From contig OX387607.1 of NCBI GenBank assembly GCA_947568835.1, positions 5,580,001-5,644,000 of the forward strand: DNA of 64,000 nucleotides, given 5' to 3'. Origin of the DNA: Protonemura montana (taxonomy: Eukaryota > Arthropoda > Insecta > Plecoptera > Nemouridae). Below the pieces are notes generated by a model. It had not been told where the DNA came from, ran no database searches, and saw only the letters and a program-made list of their open reading frames with translations. How positions within the stretch are numbered: position 1 is the stretch's first letter; every line of letters starts with the position of its first letter. Both the position numbers and the translations under genes were made by a program. Positions 1 to 15,630 of this stretch are shown here, piece after piece.

Positions 1-920
1 TTAAAATTGCGATGTTCAACTTTTTAGTTTGTATCTGACCAGCTGACCAGCTGACCAGCTGGGGTAACATTTTTCTGTACATGTTGATTTAAATTGCGAA
101 ATTTGGTTAAAAACGTGTGCAATTGGGTTATAATTGTTCAAAATTAAAATCTCTATCCTATTGTGACACTTTGAGGGTGATTTGAAAGCGTTTTTTTGGT
201 GAAATATTGATAATTGTGTTTGAAATTTCCTGCCTAGGAAAATTGGAGCCATGTCTCACAGTTCGATTTTTATTTCATTCAAAACTTGCCTTTAAATGAC
301 CTGCAGCAGTTTGGTAATACTGTTTATGCATGCCTATGAAAGTTATTGAAGAAATTGAGCCCAAACGCTGTTAATTAAGTTCGTTTTACGTGAAATAGAA
401 ATGATTTTGCAAAAAGAGTGACAGATGCATTCATTTGTCTGGTTTTTTGACCACTGCAGGGTGAACGAATTCTTAAACTTATCTTTGTGGCAGTGCATTC
501 AGGATATTAAAACGTCAATGTCAATGTCAACGTCAATGTCAAATTCTTTTCAATATCTCTAAAACTGAAGGGAAATAAATGACAAAACTGATATATTGTT
601 GGTGTCTTGGCTAGCAAGATTGGTAAGCCCAGATTCTAAAAGGTATTTCACAAGTTTCACTCTCTAAAAAATATTTCAAGAAATCATACACGGAAATCTT
701 TTGACAGCCAACTTCGTTTGTTTTCGAAATTGTCATCGTGGTCACTTTGGAATTCACAGAGTTTCCACAATGCAGTGACCCCAAGTGAAATAAGCGGCAA
801 ATTTCAAATAAAATAAATGGGGGTACTTTTGGTTGTGGTCCCATTAGAGGCTTTACATTAAAACCAAAATGCACAATCCCTCAAAATCTTAAGGTGCCGT
901 TAGGCATCGGGTTCTGCTAG
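1..920 (+). mobile_element. Helitron-like element, array member 1 (short form, 5' edge cut by window)
   Basis: This is the first of four head-to-tail copies. It has a 5' domain (to about 560) with three copies of GACCAGCT at 37-60 and a short run of GTCAAT-type hexamers near 520-540. A short-form-specific middle follows (about 620-815). The 3' end has a 4-bp stem with a GTTA loop (895-906) and ends in CTAG at 917-920. Aligned to member 2, only about 17 bp are missing at the left edge, so the full copy is about 937 bp. Hairpin plus CTRR terminus is the usual mark of Helitron-type rolling-circle elements. No Rep/helicase gene is present, so it would be non-autonomous. The family assignment is inference; the repeat itself is plain. 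Confidence 0.75.
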
Positions 921-3900
921 TTAACCTTATATAAAAGCCTTAAATTGCGATGTTCAACTTTTTAGTTTGTATCTGACCAGCTGACCAGCTGACCAGCTGG
1001 GGTAACATTTTTCTGTACATGTTGATTTAAATTGCGAAATTTGGTTAAAAACGTGTGCAATTGGGTTATAATTGTTCAAAATTAAAATCTCAACACTATT
1101 GTGACACTTTGAGGGTGATTTGAAAGCGTTTTTTTGGTGAAATATTGATAATTGTGTTTGAAATTTCCTGCCTAGGAAAATTGGAGCCATGTCTCACAGT
1201 TCGATTTTTATTTCATTCAAAACTTGCCTTTAAATGACCTGCAGCAGTTTGGTAATACTGTTTATGCATGCCTATGAAAGTTATTGAAGAAATTGAGCAC
1301 AAACGCTGTTATTTACGTTCGTTTTAAGTGAAATAGAAATAATTTTGCAAAAAGTTTGACAGATGCATTCATTTGTTTGGTTTTTTGACCACTGCAGGGT
1401 GAACGAATTCTTAAACTTATCTTTGCGGCAGTGCATTCAGGATATTCAAACGTCAATGTCAATGTCAACGTCAATGTCAAATTCTTTTCAAAATCTCTAG
1501 AACTGAAGGAAAAACGTGTGAAATTGGCTTATTTTGGTTCTTTATTCAGGATTTAATCCAACTACGTCTTTTTCACGGTGATTTTAAAGAGCATTATTAT
1601 AGTAAAGTATCAAAAATATTGTTGGTGTCTTGGCTAGCAAGATGAAAAATAGCCACTTGACAAGCCCGTGGCATTCTTGTGGAGGTTATTTACACGTCAA
1701 AAAGGTTTGGAAAGTTAAACAATCTATTAACACAACTATTGGAATCTTTTGTAAACATATTTAAAGATATTTATTGTAAATAGTATACGAAAGACAAGAA
1801 ATTTCTTAAAATACGACGATTTTTCTCCATCCCCAGCCTAGACAAGATCACACAGTTGATTCCAAGCCATCAATGATATTTGTGACAAATATGTAAATCA
1901 ATAACAATCCTAACTTTCTTTGCAGGTCTTTTACACATTAAATAGGGTTTTTAAACAAACAAAACACACTTGATTAGTTTTTTATTGATAATTTTGCCAA
2001 AACTAGATTTAAAGTGACATTGACAGATCAAAGATAAACATTTGACAGATATCTTTCATCGAATCAGGACGCCGTGGATACTTATTTTATTTTCGAGGAT
2101 GCCGTGATTATTCAACAGGTATTTAAATTCAAAACGTCATTAATGACAGAGTGCAGTTTTATCAAATCTAATCCAAATAAGCAATCTAAGTTTAATACGG
2201 TTTTCTATGGAAGTGTTTAATATTGTATAGTACTTTATGGTGTTACATGGTAGTCTATGTTATTCTATGGTATTCTATGGTATTCTATGGTATTCTATGG
2301 AGTTCTATGGTATTCTATGGTATTCTATGGTATTCTATGATATTCTATGGTATTCTATGGTAAACTATGGTATTCCAAGGTATTCTATGGTATTCTATGG
2401 AGTTCTATGGTATTCTATGATATTGTTTGGTATTTTATGATTTTGTATGGTATTATATGGTATTATTTAGAGTTATATGGTATTCTATGGTATTGTTTGG
2501 TATTCTATGGTATTGTTTGGTATTCTATTATATAGTTTGGTATTCTATGGTATTTTATGGTATTTTATGGTATTGTTTGGTATTCTATGGTGTTCTATGG
2601 TATTTTATGGTATTCTATGGTATTCTATGGTATTCTATGGTATTCTATGGTATTCTATGGTATTCTATGGTATTCTATGGTATTCTATGGAGTTCTATGG
2701 TATTCTATGATATTGTTTGATATTCTATGGTATTCTATGGTATTCTATGGTATTCTATCGTGTACTATGGTATTCTATGGAGTTCTATGGTACTCTATTA
2801 TATTTTTTGGTATTCTATGATATTGTATGGTATTGTATGGTATTGTATGGTATTGTATGGTATTCTTTGGAGTTCTTTGGTATTCTATGATTTTGTTTGG
2901 TATTTTATGATATTCTATTGAGTTCTATGGTATTCTTTGATATTTTTTTGTATTCTATGATATTGTATGGTATTCTATGATATTCTATTAAGTTCTATGG
3001 TATTCTATGGTATTCTATGGTATTCTATGGAGTTCCTTGGTACTCTATTGTATTTTTTGTATTCTATGATATTTTATGGTATTCTATGGTATTCTATGGT
3101 ATTCTATGGTATTCTATGGTATTCTATGATATTGTTTGGTATTCTATGGTATTCTATGGTATTCTATGATATTGTTTGGTATTCTATGGTATTCTATGGC
3201 ATTCTATCGTGTACTATGGTATTCTATGGAGTTCTATGGTACTCTATTATATTTTTTGGTATTCTATGATATTGTATGGTATTGTATGGTATTGTATGGT
3301 ATTCTATGGTATTCTATGGTATTCTATGGTATTCTATGGCATTGTTTGGTATTTTATGATATTCTATTGAGTTCTATGGTATTCTATGATATTGTTTGGT
3401 ATTTTATGGTATTCTATGGTATTGTTTGGTGATCTATGGTATTCTATGATTTTGTTTGGTATTCTATGGTATTCTATGGTATTCTATGGAGTTCTATGGT
3501 ACTCTATTATATTTTTTGGTATTCTATGATATTATATGGTATTCTATGGTATTCTATGGTATTCTATGACATTGTTCGGTATTTTATGATATTCTAGTGA
3601 GTTCTAGGGTATTCTATGATATTTTTTTTTGTATTCTATGATATTGTATGGTATTCTATGGAGTTCTATGGTATTCTATGGTATTCTATGGTATTCTTTG
3701 GAGTTCTTTGGTATTCTATGATTTTGTTTGGTATTCTTTGGTATTCTATGGAGTTCTATGGTAGTCGATGATATTATTTGGTATTCTTTGGTATTCTATG
3801 GTATTCTATGGTATTCTATGGTATTCTATGGAGTTCTTTGGTATTCTATGATATTGTTTGGTATTCTATGGTATTCTTTGGAGTTCTATGATATTCTATG

Positions 3901-4264
3901 AAATTCTATTGAGTTATATGGTATTCTATGGTATTCTATGGAGTTCTATGATATTCTATGGTATTCTATGGTATTGTATGGAGTTCTATGGTATTCTATG
4001 GTATTGTTAGGTATTCTATGGTGTTCTATGGTATTCTATGGTATTCTATGGTATTCTATGGTATTTTATGGAATTGTATGGTATTTAACAATATTGTTAG
4101 GTGTTGTTTGGCACTTTTGGTTGTGGCCCTATTTAAAACTTTTGGAACGGCATCTGACAAATTTCGAAAACTTTTTAAAATATGCTTCAAGTCAAGTAAA
4201 ATATAAATCAAAATGCCCACTCCCTCAAAATCTTAAGGTGCCGTTAGGCATCGGGTTCTGCTAG
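921..4264 (+). mobile_element. Helitron-like element, array member 2 (long form with minisatellite)
   Basis: It begins directly after the CTAG of member 1. The first bases, TTAACCTTATATAAAAGC, are shared at each junction. The GACCAGCT triplet is at 975-998. The long-form middle (about 1500-2200) differs from the short form but shares GGTGTCTTGGCTAGCAAGAT with it. A 10-bp minisatellite fills 2201-4111. The 3' end repeats the terminal hairpin (4239-4250) and CTAG (4261-4264). No transposase-like ORF is visible; open frames inside are products of the minisatellite. Members 2 and 3 are collinear without indels from their starts to the start of the minisatellite. Confidence 0.75.
2201..4111 (+). 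repeat. 10-bp minisatellite, array 1
   Basis: About 190 units of consensus TATTCTATGG. Common variants are AGTTCTATGG, TATTGTTTGG, TATTCTATGA, TATTTTATGG and TACTCTATTA. The variants recur in longer patterns, so there is a higher-order structure. The top strand is T-rich and C-poor. Because 10 is not a multiple of 3, every plus frame reads the same rotated decapeptide, which explains the many open frames here; none should be taken as a gene. Confidence 0.95.
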
Positions 4265-7200
4265 TTAACCTTATATAAAAGCTTTAAATTGCGATGTTCA
4301 ACTTTTTAGTTTGTATCTGACCAGCTGACCAGCTGACCAGCTGGGGTAACATTTTTCTGTACATGTCGTTTTAAATTGCAAAATTTGGTTAAAAACGTGT
4401 GCAATTGGGTTATATTTGTTCAAAATTCAAATCTCTATCCTATTGTGACACTTTGAGGGTGATTTGAAAGCGTTTTTTTGGTGAAATATTGATAATTGTG
4501 TTTGAAATTTCCTGCCTAGGAAAATTGGAGCCATGTCTCACAGTTCGATTTTTATTTCATTCAAAACTTGCCTTTAAATGACCTGCAGCAGTTTGGTAAT
4601 ACTGTTTATGCATGCCTATGAAAGTTATTGAAGAAATTGAGCCCAAACGCTGTTAATTAAGTTCGTTTTACGTGAAATAGAAATGATTTTGCAAAAAGAG
4701 TGACAGATGCATTCATTTGTTTGGTTTTTTGACCACTGCAGGGTGAACGAATTCTTAAACTTATCTTTGCGGCAGTGCATTCAGGATATTCAAACGTCAA
4801 TGTCAATGTCAACGTCAATGTCAAATTCTTTTCAAAATCTCTAGAACTGAAGGAAAAACGTGTGAAATTGGCTTATTTTGGTTCTTTATTCAGGATTTAA
4901 TCCAACTACGTCTTTTTCACGGTGATTTTAAAGAGCATTATTATAGTAAAGTATCAAAAATATTGTTGGTGTCTTGGCTAGCAAGATGAAAAATAGCCAC
5001 TTGACAAGCCCGTGGCATTCTTGTGGAGGTTATTTACACGTCAAAAAGGTTTGGAAAGTTAAACAATCTATTAACACAACTATTGGAATCTTTTGTAAAC
5101 ATATTTAAAGATATTTATTGTAAATAGTATACGAAAGACAAGAAATTTCTTAAAATACGACGATTTTTCTCCATCCCCAGCCTAGACAAGATCACACAGT
5201 TGATTCCAAGCCATCAATGATATTTGTGACAAATATGTAAATCAATAACAATCCTAACTTTCTTTGCAGGTCTTTTACACATTAAATAGGGTTTTTAAAC
5301 AAACAAAACACACTTGATTAGTTTTTTATTGATAATTTTGCCAAAACTAGATTTAAAGTGACATTGACAGATCAAAGATAAACATTTGACAGATATCTTT
5401 CATCGAATCAGGACGCCGTGGATACTTATTTTATTTTCGAGGATGCCGTGATTATTCAACAGGTATTTAAATTCAAAACGTCATTAATGACAGAGTGCAG
5501 TTTTATCAAATCTAATCCAAATAAGCAATCTAAGTTTAATACGGTTTTCTATGGAAGTGTTTAATATTGTATAGTACTTTATGGTGTTACATGGTAGTCT
5601 ATGTTATTCTATGGTATTCTATGGTATTCTATGGTATTCTATGGAGTTCTATGGTATTCTATGGTATTCTATGGTATTCTATGATATTCTATGGTATTCT
5701 ATGGTATTCTATGGTATTCTATAGTATTCTATGGTATTCTATGGTAAACTATGGTATTCCAAGGTATTCTATGGTATTCTATGGAGTTCTATGGTATTCT
5801 ATGATATTGTTTGGTATTTTATGATTTTGTATGGTATTATATGGTATTATTTAGAGTTATATGGTATTCTATGGTATTGTTTGGTATTCTATGATATTGT
5901 TTGGTATTCTATGATATAGTTTGGTATTCTATGGTATTTTATGGTATTTTATGGTATTGTTTGGTATTCTATGGTGTTCTATGGTATTCTATGATATAGT
6001 TTGGTATTCTATGGTATTTTATGGTATTCTATGGTATTCTATGGTATTCTATGGTATTCTATGGTATTCTATGGTATTCTATGGTATTCTATGGAGTTCT
6101 ATGGTATTCTATGATATTGTTTGGTATTCTATGATATTGTATGGTATTCTATGGTATTCTATGGAGTTCCATGGTATTCTATGGTATTCTATGGAGTTCT
6201 ATGGTATTCTATGATATTTTTTGGTATTCTATGATATTGTATGGTATTCTATGGTATTCTATGGTATTCTATGGTATTCTATGGAGTTCTATTGTTTTCT
6301 ATGGTATTCTATGGTATTCTATGATATTGTTTGATATTCTATGGTATTCTATGGTATTGTATGGTATTCTATGGTATTCTATGACATTGTTTGGTATTTT
6401 ATGATATTCTATTGAGTTCTATGGTATTCTTTGATATTTTTTTGTATTCTATGATATTGTATGGTATTCTATGATATTCTATTAAGTTCTATGGTATTCT
6501 ATGGTATTCTATGGTATTCTATGGAGTTCCTTGGTACTCTATTGTATTTTTTGTATTCTATGATATTTTATGGTATTCTATGGTATTCTATGGTATTCTA
6601 TGGTATTCTATGATATTGTTTGGTATTCTATGGTATTCTATGGTATTCTATGATATTGTTTGGTATTCTATGGTATTCTATGGCATTCTATCGTGTACTA
6701 TGGTATTCTATGGAGTTCTATGGTACTCTATTATATTTTTTGGTATTCTATGATATTGTATGGTATTGTATGGTATTGTATGGTATTCTATGGTATTCTA
6801 TGGCATTGTTTGGTATTTTATGATATTCTATTGAGTTCTATGGTATTCTATGATATTGTTTGGTATTTTATGGTATTCTATGGTATTGTTTGGTGATCTA
6901 TGGTATTCTATGATATTGTTTGGTTTTCTATGGTATTCTATGGTATTCTATGGAGTTCTATGGTACTCTATTATATTTTTTGGTATTCTATGATATGATA
7001 TGGTATTCTATGGTATTCTATGGTATTCTATGACATTGTTCGGTATTTTATGATATTCTAGTGAGTTCTAGGGTATTCTATGATATTTTTTTTGTGTTCT
7101 ATGATATTTTATGGTATTCTATGGAGTTCTATGGTATTCTATGGTATTCTATGGTATTCTTTGGAGTTCTTTGGTATTCTATGATTTTGTTTGGTATTCT

Positions 7201-7717
7201 TTGGTATTCTATGGAGTTCTATGGTAGTCGATGATATTATTTGGTATTCTATGGTATTCTATGGTATTCTATGGTATTCTATGGTATTCTATGGAGTTCT
7301 TTGGTATTCTATGATATTGTTTGGTATTCTATGGTATTCTTTGGAGTTCTATGATATTCTATGAAATTCTATTGAGTTATATGGTATTCTATGGTATTCT
7401 ATGGAGTTCTATGGTATTCTATGGTATTCTATGGTATTGTATGGAGTTCTATGGTATTCTATGGTATTGTTAGGTATTCTATGGTGTTCTATGGTATTCT
7501 ATGGTATTCTATGGTATTTTATGGAATTGTATGGTATTTAACAATATTGTTAGGTGTTGTTTGGCACTTTTGGTTGTGGCCCTATTTAAAACTTTTGGAA
7601 CGGCATCTGACAAGTTTCGAAAACTTTTTAAAATATGCTTCAAGTCAAGTAAAATATAAATCAAAATGCCCACTCCCTCAAAATCTTAAGGTGCCGTTAG
7701 GCATCGGGTTCTGCTAG
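4265..7717 (+). mobile_element. Helitron-like element, array member 3 (long form, mosaic)
   Basis: This is a second long copy, 109 bp longer than member 2. The flanks of the minisatellite are the same length in both, so the whole difference lies in the array (2020 versus 1911 bp). Its first about 440 bp carry the variants of member 1 (for example GTTAATTAAGTTC and AAAAAGAGTGAC), and the rest follows member 2. Hairpin at 7692-7703, CTAG at 7714-7717. The minisatellite has the same unusual variant units in the same order as member 2, so the pair arose by duplicating an already expanded element. Confidence 0.75.
5545..7564 (+). repeat. 10-bp minisatellite, array 2
   Basis: About 200 units of the same TATTCTATGG repeat inside array member 3. 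It starts with the same degenerate units as array 1 and shares rare ones such as GTAAACTATGG and TATTCCAAGG. It is collinear with array 1 apart from gains and losses of blocks of units. Array 1 has about five repeated standard units near 3070-3125 where this one has about four near 6565-6610. Confidence 0.95.
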
Positions 7718-8660
7718 TTAACCTTATATAAAAGCTTTAAATTTGCGATGTTCAACTTTTTAGTTTGTATCTGGCGACCGACCAGCTGACCAGCTGGGGT
7801 AACATTTTTCTGTACATGTTGATTTAAATTGCGAAATTTGGTAAAAAACGTGTGGAATTGGGTTATAATTGTTCAAAATTAAAATCTTCACACTATTGTG
7901 ACACTTTGAGGGTGATTTGAAAGCGTTTTTTTGGTGAAATATTGATAATTATGTTTGAAATTTCCTGCCTAGGAAAATTGGAGCCATGTCTCACAGCTCG
8001 ATTTTTATTTGATTCAAAACTTGCCTTTTACTCACCCGCAGCAGCTCGGTAATACTCTTCATGCATGTCTATGAAAGTTATTGAAGAAATTGAGCCCAAA
8101 GGCTGTTATTTACGTTCCTTTTACGTGAAATGGAAATAATTTTGCAAAAAGTTTGACAGATTCATTCATTTGTTTGGTTTTTTGACCACTGCAGGGTGAA
8201 CGAATTCTTAAACTTATCTTTGCGGCAGTGCATTCAGGATATTCAAACGTCAATGTCAATGTCAACGTCAATGTCAAATTCTTTTCAAAATCTCTGGAAC
8301 TGAAGGGAAATAAATGACAGAACTGAAATATTGTTGGTGTCTTGGCTAGCAAGATTGGCTAGCCCAGATTGTAAAAGGTATTTCACAAGTTTCACTCTCT
8401 AAGATATATTTGAAGAAATCATACACGGAAATCTTTTGACAGCCAACGTCCTTTGTTTTCGAAATTGTCATCGTGGTCACTTTGGAATTCACAGAGTTTC
8501 CACAATGCAGTGACCCCGAGTGACATAAGCGGCAAATTTCAAACAAAATAAACGGGGGTACTGTATGGTATTGCATGGTACTATTGGTTGTGGTCCCATT
8601 AAAACCAAAATGCCAACTCCCTCAAAATCGTAAGCGGCCGTAGGCAGCGGGTTCTGCTAG
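7718..8660 (+). mobile_element. Helitron-like element, array member 4 (short form, right end of array)
   Basis: This short copy is similar in build to member 1 but carries the diagnostic variants of member 2 in its 5' domain (GTTATTTACGTTC, AAAAAGTTTGAC). One GACCAGCT unit is altered. At about 8559-8584, where the long copies hold the big minisatellite, there are two or three units (TGTATGGTATTGCATGG). The terminal hairpin is degenerate (GCC-GTA-GGC at 8637-8645), followed by CTAG at 8657-8660 and then a T, as expected for Helitron insertion between A and T. Sequence after 8660 is unrelated to the array, so this is its right boundary. Confidence 0.72.
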
Positions 8661-11600
8661 TGTTCGTATATTTTGAATAGTTTAAGAACCATTAAACCGA
8701 TTTTGCTAAAAATCAAATCCGGTCTAATTTAAAAACACAAAAATGTGCTCTACAAATTAAAATTAAATCGGTGCAGGCGTTGGGACGCTAGAGCGCAAAC
8801 AAAACACACAAACCAACAAAAAAAAAGACACAATTAATTTTTTTGGGGGGTAAGTAAAACTGGAGATTTCGCTCGTTACGCTCATCAATGACCTTGAACT
8901 TTGGTTGTCCACCATGTTGAACAAGATTGTTAAAGTCTGCCATGTCAGCTGGTTCGGGCAGACCGAGTTTCTGTTGCACAAATCCGTGTCAGATACTTGT
9001 CTTCTATTGTTCAATTTTCCAAAATTATCCATGGACTGATTTAGCCCACAACTCTCAAGGTTAAATATTTCTCTATTGTATAACAGCCTTAGAAAAGCTA
9101 CGAACACCGATTTTTGTTGGCTAACAATCTTTTAGCAACCATGGATCAGTTGCTTGTCGACAAATAATAGCAGTACGCGGTGATCTGCTGTTGTTTCAAC
9201 AAAAAACAGCGGCGTTTGCAATCGAGAAAATCGTTCCTTTAATTTAAAATCAACAAAGTGATGCATTTAGCATGAAAATGATTGTCAATCGACAAAATTG
9301 AATACAGTGGTTTATTTAACATTTATTATACCGATTCCGACTACACGTACCCTCTCAATTCTACTTGAAAACTAAACATTCAACTGAATAAAATTCACTA
9401 GCACACAAACAACCACTCAATAATTCAACATTGCAAAATGAAAACAGTTATAGCCCTTCCATGAGCGCATGGAACAACAAAATACACTATACAAATAATT
9501 AATAAATTACGATTTAATAAATTTCCACTGGCGTATATAGCGAGGAATTCTGGTCAACTTTAGCATCGCCACCGCAGCGATATTTGCATTCAACTAAACA
9601 CCACCAGAGCGAAAAAAAAAACCCATCGCGACGCCGGTTTTAGCACAGTTTGAAACCGAGTTTCATTCCAAACCACAAACGCATCTGCGTCGCCCGAAGC
9701 AGCAGGAGGACTTGGGTCTAGCGCTCTGGGTTAGGTTACCACCGCGAGTCTACAGTCAAACAATACTAAAAGCGACGATATTATTTGCAAGAGAAATTAG
9801 TATCACCACAGTTTTGGTGAAGAGAGCTCGTCGTCGTGCATTGCAGCTGGTGGAATCTGTCTGGACAAACTCTGCGCGGTGTCTTGTGTGATCAAGCTGC
9901 AGAGTAAGATACCCAATTGCGTTGCGTCTTCAGAACTGGAAGCTTAACCAACAAAGTCTACGTTAACTAATTAACTCTAATTAACTAAAACAGTTGCGGT
10001 TAAAGCTCTGACCCGAGCGATTATTTCTGGAGTTTATTTCGAATGGTACTTCACGGTTTATATTACAGTATTGTTTGGTGTGATGTGGTAATAGCTAGCG
10101 GTAGCGCAGTCTATAATCAATAGCAATAATAATATTAACGATACTTCAGTACAAACTGTTATTAATGATGTTGCAACATGTCGGTAGTTGATGCTCATTT
10201 TGGTTGTCATTGATTGAATGCTAAAAATAGTGACATTGTAGCCTTTTTTTCCTTGTTAATGACAAATAGCAATTAAGCCATTTGTTTTGTCGCAGCTGTC
10301 ATTGTGTACAAACTATTTCCAATCGAAGCGTTAATTTTTTTTCTTATTGAAAAAATCGCTCCGCGCGGTTTTTTGTTTTCCGTACGAAACCGTGATTTTA
10401 CATGGTCTCTGAACAGCGTGAAAAGAAAACAGCATACCAGCAGTAATCTCCGCTCTCGCCGTTTAAGCTGCGAGCTGGAAAATGCTTTCATGCTCGAGAA
10501 ACGAGACAGAAATCAAGACGAAACCAAAGAAAATCATCAACGCGCAAGACATCTTTCAACAGTCTTACATCTCCCGCAAAAGTTTCTTATTCATAAACCA
10601 GGTTTAAATGTAAATCCTTCCCGTAAGGCAGCAAAAGACGATAGCCACCAGGGTATGGTTTACCATCAGAATATCATCCAGAATTTAAACCACGAACATC
10701 AATACTTAAATCCCCTTTAAATTAATCCCACGTGCCAGCTTAAACATGCAGCAACGGGATCCTCTCTAATCTCCATATTATTTTCTACCGCATTGTCTGT
10801 CGCCGAGTAAAGACAAGGTAGCCTGCAAAAGTGGCTTCTTTGCACATGCGGTTGCGTCGATGTCGTCTTCGTCGACGAACACGACGACAAATAAAAGATG
10901 AGCAAAGAAAACAGCGGCATAATTGAGTATTTCGTTCCATTTAGCGAGTCAATTCGCTGGCTGAGCTTGACGCTCTTCAGAAACCGCTGATGATAAAGGC
11001 AAGCGCTCTCGCTAATCATCACCGTGCACACATGATCTATTCATGGCACTGTTTCTGGCCATAAAAAAATCTCATTGCGCTCTATAGGTAATTTATTTGA
11101 GCCCATTTACATCTCGTGCTTAATGTGTAGTGTGAAGGTAGACGTTGTATTCATGAATAGAGCATGAGTTACGAGCACAAAACATATAGGAATTGATGCC
11201 GAGTGGTTAAGCCCATCAAGCACGTGACACCTGCATACGTTCAGGAATCCGTTCGCTATTTGTGTAAATACCCGAGTTGCGGGATATTGTTAAATGAGAC
11301 TCATTAACCGCACAACAATTAGTGGACCCGGAGTGCATTGAAACATAGCCGTTCAATTGGGGAGCAGGGCAATGCAAGATATTTGCGTTCAGCACCGCTT
11401 GTAAGCCCAAATAACAGAACCCTAAAGCCGTGCTAACCCGACAATAGTTCGAAGGTGAACGCTCGCTCTCCGATATAGTTAAGGGCTAACAGAACTCGAT
11501 CTGTGTTTACCGTTGAAGCCAATGATCAATTCGGCAAGCCACGATATATTCCTTGCGTCCCCAGTCGACGCCCTCTCGAGGGGGTGACATGCAAACAAAT

Positions 11601-13206: not shown

Positions 13207-15018
13207 AAACCTGATTTGTCAAAAACTAACCCCATGAACTAGAATGCAACTAAAACTTTGAGTGATTATAATTTTTAACGAACTAAAAAGAAGCTTCAAA
13301 CATTTGAAAGTGTGCCCCTCCCCCCTCCCCTATACCCAGACCGTTGGCGTACAATCTCCGTACCCCCATCCTTGTTTCACTGCAGCATAACGCTAAGAAA
13401 CGAAAATGAACGCGCAGTTTTTTATTTATACGAGTTTTCTTGCTGCATTTTCTTGTACGCTTCTTTGATGCATGATACGCTGTTCGTTGTTTGACGTGGG
13501 CACGAGTAAAGTCCCTAGGGAGCGGTTAAATCGCTCCACAAGTACATAACTTGAGTATTTAGGTTACGATGCCCTTAGGACCCCGTTTCGGTACATTAAT
13601 CTACCCAACAGGCACAACGCATTCATCTCCAATCGAACAAACCCTTGTATCGCCACTTATTTCGGCTGCGAAAATAAAACATCCCATTAATTTCAGATGA
13701 TCTCCTTCAACTCGTACCATACTCGCGCGGGTGTATGTCCCATAAATTGCACGTGCTCTCTTGTCCGGATAAAATTAACAACCAAACTCGACACGTTTTT
13801 GTTTCGAAACATGACAAAACAAACCAAAAAGGGTCGTGTTAATGTATTTTGCCAGCTGTAATAACTACTTATTCCCTAATGCCATATACTAGACATATAT
13901 AACGTGTGCAATTTCATGTAATATTGTACTTGTGGCGGTACCGAGTATGACAGTGCTGCATTGTCAGGAAAGAGAGCGTTATTTCGATGTTATACGAGTG
14001 GTGGGCGCTGTAGATATGATGAAAAGTGCCCGTCGACGAATCATCTCACATCAGAATCCACCCATATTGCAATCTGCACTTGTGATTCGATATACGCTTA
14101 AACGGATACCTCCACCCGATATAGGTATACCTGGCGCAGTAAGGAGGTAAATTTGAATGAAGGTAGTAGAATTAATAATACACGTTCGATTGAGAATTGT
14201 ATAGAAAGTACTATACGTTTAAATGAAAACTTGTTGGGGTGGAAACTAATTCCATTCGAAATTTCTATGGGGTAGTTTTTTTTTGCTTCTCTTCCCAGGA
14301 GGCTGGCTTAAATGCGGTATTCAAGAGAGCGTAGTGGTATTGTTGAGAATGCAGATATGGAAGCATTCGATGAGCGATGCTAGACTGATGTGACGTTAAG
14401 GGTGATCGTCTTTTATTAGCGCATTGCCGTAAGGAGTCGTATTTTCAGCAATTCGGCGATAACGAAGTATATATTCATTTCTTGGCACAAATGCATTGCG
14501 AATATGAGGATAGCATCCAAATCGTAGGTTAATTTTGTCATAAATCATGGCTTTGCGTTAACAAATTGTGGCTCCGCTTCAAGTTCACGTTAACTGGGGC
14601 TAACGCGGGTAGAACTTAATTTGAAACTTGGTTAAATTACCTTCTAAGTGCTGTTGTTTCTAATGACCTTTGCTACATAGTACATATTTCAGCTTAAACT
14701 GACAGTTTGCCGTCCGTCCGATGTTTCATTAGGTGAGATTAAATCTCGGATCTAATTTGAGTTTAACATGAGAAACATTTGTGTGTCCATCCAATCAACG
14801 TAAATAGTGCTGCAGATTTGATTTTAAGAGACAACCATGATGTGGAAATGTCATTTGGATTATTTCCCTCAAATTCAGCATTTGCAGCTGGTCACTTAGT
14901 GATTTGAGACTTATGTTTACAGGGGTTTTCTGGCCGTGGCTCTGGAGCTGGAATACTAAATTTTTATTTGTTTCACTCCAATCACCCTCGGTCTGACTTT
15001 GAAATCTTGTGCTTGCAG
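13207..15018 (+). other. non-coding, probably end of the intron before the receptor exon
   Basis: No exon-like segment was recognised. The stretch ends in a splice acceptor, CTTGTGCTTGCAG at 15006-15018, directly before the receptor exon. Only short ORFs occur. A T-run lies at about 14276-14284. The preceding exon of the receptor gene is not visible here. Confidence 0.55.
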
Positions 15019-15630
15019 TGCAGCGGCTACACGGGCATCTCGACGCAGTGCTTCAAGACATCGTCGGTGCCGCGACGCTCCAACGAGTCTCAGTGCCCGA
15101 TGCTCTCGTCGCACAAGGCGAAGAAGACGACGACCAACCACCGGCAACACCACCCCCCGTTCACCAACTCGACGCAGCACAAGAAGTTGCGTTTCGTGCT
15201 GGCCAAAGAGCGCAAGGCTAGCACCACCCTCGGCATCATCATGAGCTCGTTCACCATCTGCTGGCTGCCATTCTTTGTGCTTGCTTTGATCAGGCCGTTC
15301 CTCAACGAAGACGCGATACCAGGTCCACTGTCGAGCACTTTTCTCTGGCTTGGTTACGCCAACTCGCTGTTCAATCCGATCATCTACGCGACACTTAACA
15401 GAGACTTCAGGAAGCCGTTTCAGGAGATTCTGTACTTCCGGTGTGGCTCGTTGAATCACATGATGAGAGAGGAGTTTTACCAAAGTCAGTACGGCGATCC
15501 TGAGCAGTACTGCGTGATCAACAGCAGCAACGTGGGCGAGCACGTCGTCGTCAGGGAGAAAGAGGAAGAGGGTGGCGATTATGAGATCGTAGAAGCGACT
15601 ACCCGGACTGACGAAGAGAGTTTTCTATGA
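15019..15630 (+). CDS. 5-HT7: serotonin receptor 5-HT7, last coding exon (TM6, TM7, C-tail)
   Basis: This is the terminal exon of a class A G-protein-coupled receptor, 203 codons and a TGA stop. The frame is set by the acceptor TTGCAG at 15013-15018, giving a phase-0 start inside the third cytoplasmic loop. That loop is polar and basic, with a His/Thr-rich patch. TM6 is about residues 69-91 and contains the CWLP motif (81-84) with FF next to it. TM7 is about 104-125 with NPIIY (119-123), the class A NPxxY switch. A helix 8 follows (RDFRKPF), with a Cys at 142 that could be palmitoylated. The segments ASTTLGII and LIRPF and the long tail after TM7 fit arthropod 5-HT7, which couples through Gs to raise cAMP, better than 5-HT1. 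The tail is acidic and ends ESFL, a class I PDZ-binding pattern. TM1-TM5 and the ligand-binding Asp must lie in upstream exons outside the visible coding sequence. The subtype comes from memory of the family; a 5-HT1 or other amine receptor is the alternative. Confidence 0.85.
   Translation, partial: CSGYTGISTQCFKTSSVPRRSNESQCPMLSSHKAKKTTTNHRQHHPPFTNSTQHKKLRFVLAKERKASTTLGIIMSSFTICWLPFFVLALIRPFLNEDAIPGPLSSTFLWLGYANSLFNPIIYATLNRDFRKPFQEILYFRCGSLNHMMREEFYQSQYGDPEQYCVINSSNVGEHVVVREKEEEGGDYEIVEATTRTDEESFL

Follow-up and report, generated by a model that had tools for sequence, protein, structure and literature searches.

Head-to-tail stacks of a Helitron family of Protonemura montana (Insecta; Plecoptera) probably arise for the most part when single copies insert one after another at the 5' end of an already resident copy, a reading to which a probability of about 0.58 is assigned. 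The family was met in a stretch of 64,000 nucleotides (assembly GCA_947568835.1, contig OX387607.1, positions 5,580,001 to 5,644,000; termed the window), which carries at its left edge an array of four units that follow each other with zero spacer and meet in three exact junctions; a control of 100 shuffles, with up to 3 mismatches allowed, yielded 0 such junctions. The four spacerless copies with their CTAG junctions, as well as their length order short, long, long, short, had been read correctly in an original prediction made from the letters of the window. The 5' boundary, which was to be sought to the left of base 1, lies at C5:5579982, 19 bp outside the window; the array is flanked by A on the left and T on the right.

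The window array is one of many. The genome (258 Mb in 34 contigs) contains 644 exact head-to-tail junctions, with 0 in the reversed control, and 644 of the 954 counted exact 5' ends directly abut a preceding copy. With up to 3 mismatches in the 31-mer, 678 junctions are found; hence, few junctions have decayed to that degree. Head-to-head border junctions number 0 in the genome (up to 2 mismatches), although the A-T dinucleotide (the hyphen marking the point of insertion) would by itself permit them. Nested insertions within copies are present in both orientations. On C1-C3, where both lists are complete, 34 arrays are detected by exact motifs alone; of 78 exact 5' ends, 44 lack a following exact junction, the other 34 have one to eight, and 73 of 83 junctions can be chained to an exact 5' end. 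C7 and C8 are junction-dense, accounting for 34 + 31 = 65 of the 100 junctions listed among 140 of one tail type, and the family blocks on them may be satellite-like. At C8:654201-663210, four junctions are spaced by exactly 2991 bp, which fits local amplification or true rolling-circle copying. Two oppositely oriented arrays start about 0.4 kb apart at C1:3725560 (minus strand) and C1:3726008 (plus strand). At C2:3103208 and C2:3106635, an array of apparently opposite orientation lies, judging from the flanks only, inside the head of another copy and occupies a T-T rather than an A-T site.

Units were compared in a sample of 83 from 30 arrays or solo copies, collected via exact motifs and located mostly on C1 and C2. 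The parser required both ends in each unit, and L041 and L042 were removed as duplicates of L032 and L034. The limits of the element are TTAACC and CTAG, with insertion between A and T and a border that is ambiguous by one T. TTAACC opens 82 of the 83 parsed units, and CTAG, which conforms to the CTRR end of Helitrons, closes all 83 (the parser sought CGGGTTCTGCTAG with up to 2 changes). The base before the 5' end is A in 98 and T in 2 of the 100 listed among 310 5' ends without a preceding G. The outer borders read A...T in all 24 arrays or solo copies with both borders examined, two of which (the first array of L010, and L050) have a fragment of another copy as left neighbor. In L050, a 132-bp 5' fragment of a unit (117-249; C3:26846716) is cut at an internal A-T and followed by two full units; the remainder of this fragmentary first unit is absent at the other border. 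Single copies with A/T flanks, suggested as a check in the original prediction, were found in L032, L034, and L036, which share the start and end points of the window units.

Empty sites were obtained in two ways. Array C2:569508 lies within another family copy, and 31 of the 83 units contain its joined 36-nt flanks as an exact match; this exact empty site fixes the borders and demonstrates that insertion proceeds without target duplication. The joined flanks of the window array (140 + 140 bp) matched at 40 places, with 40 of 535 candidates being scored; two of these places are the array's own flanks. The other 38 span the A-T join without an array at 77-86% identity, at which the position of the join is certain only to within a few bases. 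The window array thus lies inside a dispersed repeat (C5:5579842-5579981 plus window 8661-8800) with at least 38 other copies.

An autonomous Rep/helicase element, which had been predicted to share the last 30 bp, is present in a tandem array on C2. There, a unit of 11,512 bp between two family junctions encodes an uninterrupted protein of 1893 aa with the domains Helitron_like_N (1.7e-59) and PIF1 (1.8e-56), and this protein matches Helraiser (PDB 7lcc) with 1280 bits over residues 351-1845. The catalytic motifs comprise HUH (HAH at 922), Y2 (YLCKY at 1057), and Walker A at 1406. The autonomous unit has 28 of its last 29 bp in common with window units 1-3, and over the first ~525 bp its match to each of the four window units is 66-67%. 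Of 2317 candidate transposase loci, 25 were scored: full-length copies at 98-100% identity make up 17 of them, 14 of which lack an internal stop, and the remaining 8 match in two pieces. Judged by these sequences, the family looks recently active. The N-terminal part of the transposase gene contains 69-bp repeats (L052 4215-4904; STPR-like in Pfam), and the two-piece matches of the 8 copies overlap within this repeat region.

With a Rep/PIF1 partner, insertion between A and T, and a CTRR end, the family belongs to the Helitron superfamily. Class and unit borders had, thus, been predicted rightly, which the solo copies and the flanks joining without duplication corroborate. The 5' TC of canonical Helitrons was not found; the 5' end with TT rather than TC keeps the family out of the 5'-TC subgroup. 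Elements of the DINE-1/HINE/Helentron group insert between T and T and possess a central minisatellite. The latter is common to window units 2 and 3 and is unspecific to that group. The comparison with DINE-1/HINE drawn in the prediction fails on target choice, and the kinship was dropped because the target here is A-T (98 of the 100 listed 5' flanks end in A).

The units of the sampled arrays come from a genome-wide pool. Distances were determined for 82 of the 83 units, with unit 8 of L028 (541 bp) being excluded, and C1a arrays were never counted as other arrays relative to each other. Within the 24 multi-unit arrays, the nearest relative is located in another array for 65 of 76 units and in the own array for 10, with 1 tie. 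Arrays that move as multi-unit blocks were sought via recurring neighbor pairs in the sampled arrays, and none was found above chance: 0 pairs are conserved at a distance of up to 0.01 among 16 chances, 1 at 0.02 (1.4 in shuffles), and 8 at 0.03 (6.7 in shuffles). Because relatives are mostly found in other arrays and pairs recur no more often than by chance, copying from a single template and transposition of whole arrays both fail as a general rule in this sample.

The target preference was derived from 88 distinct right flanks (99 typed rows; the search pattern omits C at +5, and the own 5' end of an inverted copy was excluded) and 99 distinct left flanks (100 listed). As background, the 8927 A-T sites of the window to the right of the array were used, which makes site densities rough. 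Right flanks carry A or T in 96% at +9, 97% at +10, 96% at +11, 89% at +7, and 86% at +13, compared with about 62-64% at the background sites; left flanks show little preference beyond the A. Of the background sites, 96.4% score lower than the own 5' end of the element, and 46 of the 88 real targets score higher, which makes this end typical of a target. Per site, own 5' borders received thousands-fold more insertions than A-T sites inside copies (roughly 8700-fold, taking 7 of 99 left flanks as nested; this number was judged from 18 left flanks with a match to a unit at up to 2 changes, against a background of 10 in 300). Right flanks match a unit in 4 of 88 cases, with 3 of 300 in the background.

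Two duplicated left flanks were examined, on C11 and C4, and both sites differ by an array exactly at the resident's border. At C11:777561, a unit of 1562 bp directly follows non-family sequence. This unit with its right flank (648 bp) has a 100% identical copy at C11:566191-567752, and its left flank (536 bp identical) recurs at C11:506136-506435; a 300-bp piece of the flank matches only these two places. In one copy, 59.75 kb sit exactly between the A of the left flank and the first base of the resident. This block starts with an autonomous-type head (91.9%) and closes with a minisatellite-bearing unit; in between are a copy of the transposase and one or more additional junctions. It thereby combines autonomous-type and non-autonomous units. 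On C4, two places share an identical flank of 166 bp, which is followed by an autonomous-type unit at the first and by another unit type at the second. The head of the second place recurs (961/966 bits) at C4:362561, 46.3 kb downstream within the first array, where it immediately follows a junction. The heads share only 26 bp (C11) and 22 bp (C4) before the first difference; hence, a loss via homologous exchange would need a crossover within these few base pairs. We infer direction and step number, reading both differences as gains at the resident's 5' border.

In the favored course of serial insertion, full-length relatives would supply a Rep/PIF1 transposase, and single Helitron copies would be made and inserted between A and T, with a preference for A-T sites whose positions from about +7 to +13 are rich in A/T. 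The resident's 5' end (A-TTAACCTTATATAAAA) would qualify as such a target site and is probably also nicked by the transposase as a recognized donor end. A newcomer at that site would lie directly ahead of the resident, share its orientation, and restore the A-TTAACC border, which would let the stack grow stepwise. Unequal exchange would add and homogenize some units locally. We further infer that one unit is added per step, mainly at the 5' edge, with donor-end recognition as the cause: insertion is most likely steered by transposase recognition of the resident's left end, which is necessarily nicked as donor. More tentatively, and at slightly less than even odds, the resident's left end would be the preferred integration site of the transposase, with donor nick site and target site being the same, and this self-renewing ratchet would allow autonomous elements to seed satellite-like family blocks.

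Several results weigh against serial insertion at the 5' end. Target-like sites predict ~0.6 border insertions, and all A-T sites ~0.02, versus the 644 seen. Target-like A-T composition was therefore rejected as the sole cause; more than composition steers insertion. An age gradient was sought in 24 arrays and not found: divergence of the 3'-most unit exceeds that of the 5'-most in 11 arrays and falls below it in 12 (Wilcoxon p 0.54), with mean divergences of 0.030 for the 3'-most and 0.020 for the 5'-most unit. Such a gradient may be masked by gene conversion, by the small number of units in each array, and by the sampling dependence of the distance; as obtained, the age result gives strict 5' growth no support. 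Furthermore, kinship within arrays exceeds the shuffles by a small but real amount. The head tree requires 57 array-label changes, with 58-68 (mean 63.5) in 200 shuffles and a minimum of 23 for one clade per array, and an initial, smaller sample of 57 units included 15 whose nearest head came from the own array, versus 2.7 in shuffles (maximum 12). Neighbors share the broad subfamily (head-to-next-head r 0.56, 52 pairs) and do not share the fine type (r -0.01, 37 pairs with young tail). The C11 and C4 pairs display blocks of 60 and 46 kb instead of single units; these blocks are mostly unread, gain or loss is a matter of interpretation, and an assembly error may be involved. The C4 head has near-identical copies on C2, C12, and C14, which makes the C4 pair weaker.

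Alternatively, one event could string unlike copies together, with rolling-circle synthesis jumping from a 3' end to the 5' end of another copy and the mixed concatemer being inserted between A and T. Such an event would account in a single step for units of mixed type, exact junctions, a uniform orientation, and the A...T borders; it needs no age gradient, as observed, and the extra blocks at C11 and C4 measure tens of kilobases. It is nevertheless unlikely, as the C11 resident follows non-family sequence at one place and the 60-kb block at the other, and as the 44 of 78 exact 5' ends on C1-C3 stand without an exact junction behind them.

Unequal crossing-over and gene conversion between arrays might also have built and shuffled the units, insertion having merely seeded the loci. 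Traces of exchange are present: at C1:281000-300999 (L010 and L011), three arrays have shared flanks and a repeated 375-bp spacer, as from unequal crossing-over between neighboring arrays; units 4-7 of L028 (C2:6431500-6441400), with 1055, 1083, 1054, and 1083 bp and near-identical heads, follow the ABAB order of a local dimer duplication; some units join the head of one subfamily to the tail of another; and the same-array kinship points in this direction as well. Local duplication, thus, contributes a minority of units. As the general origin, exchange is distinctly improbable: joints are expected anywhere in the unit, whereas the C11 and C4 differences start at the first base, with so little shared sequence before the heads diverge, and near-identical units on different contigs with unrelated A...T flanks are poorly explained.

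The simple rolling-circle concatemer of the original prediction, in which one element is copied around a circle and the multimer is inserted and later reshaped, agrees with the circle-like exact junctions in one orientation (Helraiser makes such circles according to the available part of PMC5876387), the identical heads of units 1 and 2 in the minus-strand array of L013, and the evenly spaced C8 junctions, and is possible for a minority of arrays; for most sampled arrays it is contradicted, and it is highly improbable as the general origin, given that most units are nearest to those of other arrays, that the window array mixes long and short types, and that autonomous-type and non-autonomous units occur in one C11 block.

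The features of the window array are compiled in Table 1. The long units 2 and 3 contain the TATTCTATGG minisatellites plus additional sequence. A hairpin had been predicted at the end of each copy. In the common tail, a stem of 6 bp with a loop of 4 nt forms 12 nt upstream of the end, and this hairpin is modest (-3.9 kcal/mol, z -1.8; matched by 11 of 200 shuffles); the tail type of unit 4 folds on par with shuffles (z -0.26; 74 of 200 as good), and the two non-common tail types fold no better than shuffles. A blastn search (E 1e-5) of window 8701-64000 with 8 of the 83 units and a piece of the autonomous unit as queries gave 0 further degenerate copies. At window 14968-15627, the terminal portion of a rhodopsin-like receptor in an open frame (Pfam 7tm_1, 1.7e-15) suggests an animal genome.

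Table 1. Units, junctions, and terminal features of the array at the left edge of the window.
Feature	Position in window	Strand	Remarks
Unit 1	1..920	+	939 bp; first 19 bp left of window (C5:5579982-5580000); preceding base A
Unit 2	921..4264	+	3344 bp, long type
Unit 3	4265..7717	+	3453 bp, long type
Unit 4	7718..8660	+	943 bp, divergent tail
Junction 1, CTAG-TTAACCTTATATAAAAGC	917..938	+	border 920/921
Junction 2, CTAG-TTAACCTTATATAAAAGC	4261..4282	+	border 4264/4265
Junction 3, CTAG-TTAACCTTATATAAAAGC	7714..7735	+	border 7717/7718
Unit 1, 3' terminal hairpin and CTAG	891..920	+	identical 30 bp at 4235-4264 and 7688-7717
Unit 4, 3' terminal sequence, altered hairpin, CTAG	8632..8660	+	T at 8661
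TATTCTATGG minisatellite in unit 2	2221..4085	+	
TATTCTATGG minisatellite in unit 3	5565..7538	+	

Tandem Helitrons are already known. In IS608 of the IS200-IS605 group, the HUH enzyme takes the sequence at the element's own left end as target, and the left edge of a resident stays a target. The family described here would be alike in having its own left end as a target; the IS elements differ in being bacterial and lacking a helicase. The tandem Helitron arrays of plants and bats are reportedly to be attributed to Xiong, Dooner and Du (2016) and to Pritham and Feschotte (2007). Such head-to-tail arrays are cited as support for rolling-circle copying in the available parts of PMC5876387 and PMC12628747. 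The plant arrays contain truncated copies from faulty rolling-circle copying, in many cases with several 5' ends but one 3' end (available part of PMC12628747), whereas the sampled units here carry both ends, as the parser required, and are of mixed types. Helraiser (Helibat), the autonomous Helitron of bats, forms precise end-to-end circles (available part of PMC5876387) and resembles the present family in its Rep and PIF1 transposase, A-T target, lack of target duplication, and CTRR 3' end. In contrast to Helraiser, the family begins with TT instead of TC, contains the 69-bp repeats in the N-terminal part, and has 644 of 954 counted exact 5' ends directly behind another copy.

The available parts of accounts on an insect Helitron family (PMC6544945) and on wheat (PMC13286980) describe no such stacks, and in a literature search that covered few subscription papers, some sources being available in part, neither an account of this family nor a test of self-targeting across a genome was found. 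For a single fungal array, the three-copy Helitron array of Metarhizium acridum, insertion at the 5' end had been raised in print beside rolling-circle copying and was left undecided (available part of PMC5148889). Here, the hundreds of junctions, which in the sampled arrays lie mostly between unlike complete units, together with uninterrupted transposase copies, make it possible to test self-targeted insertion against rolling-circle copying. If true, serial insertion would lead directly from an active transposon to arrays of satellite-like character and would show how a mobile element can become satellite-like DNA. For dimers of transposable elements in Drosophila melanogaster, repeated insertion guided by a site preference is described as yielding tandems from which satellites may arise (McGurk and Barbash, via the available part of PMC12628747); transposable elements in general are concerned there, whereas here it is a rolling-circle element with its own 5' end as the site.

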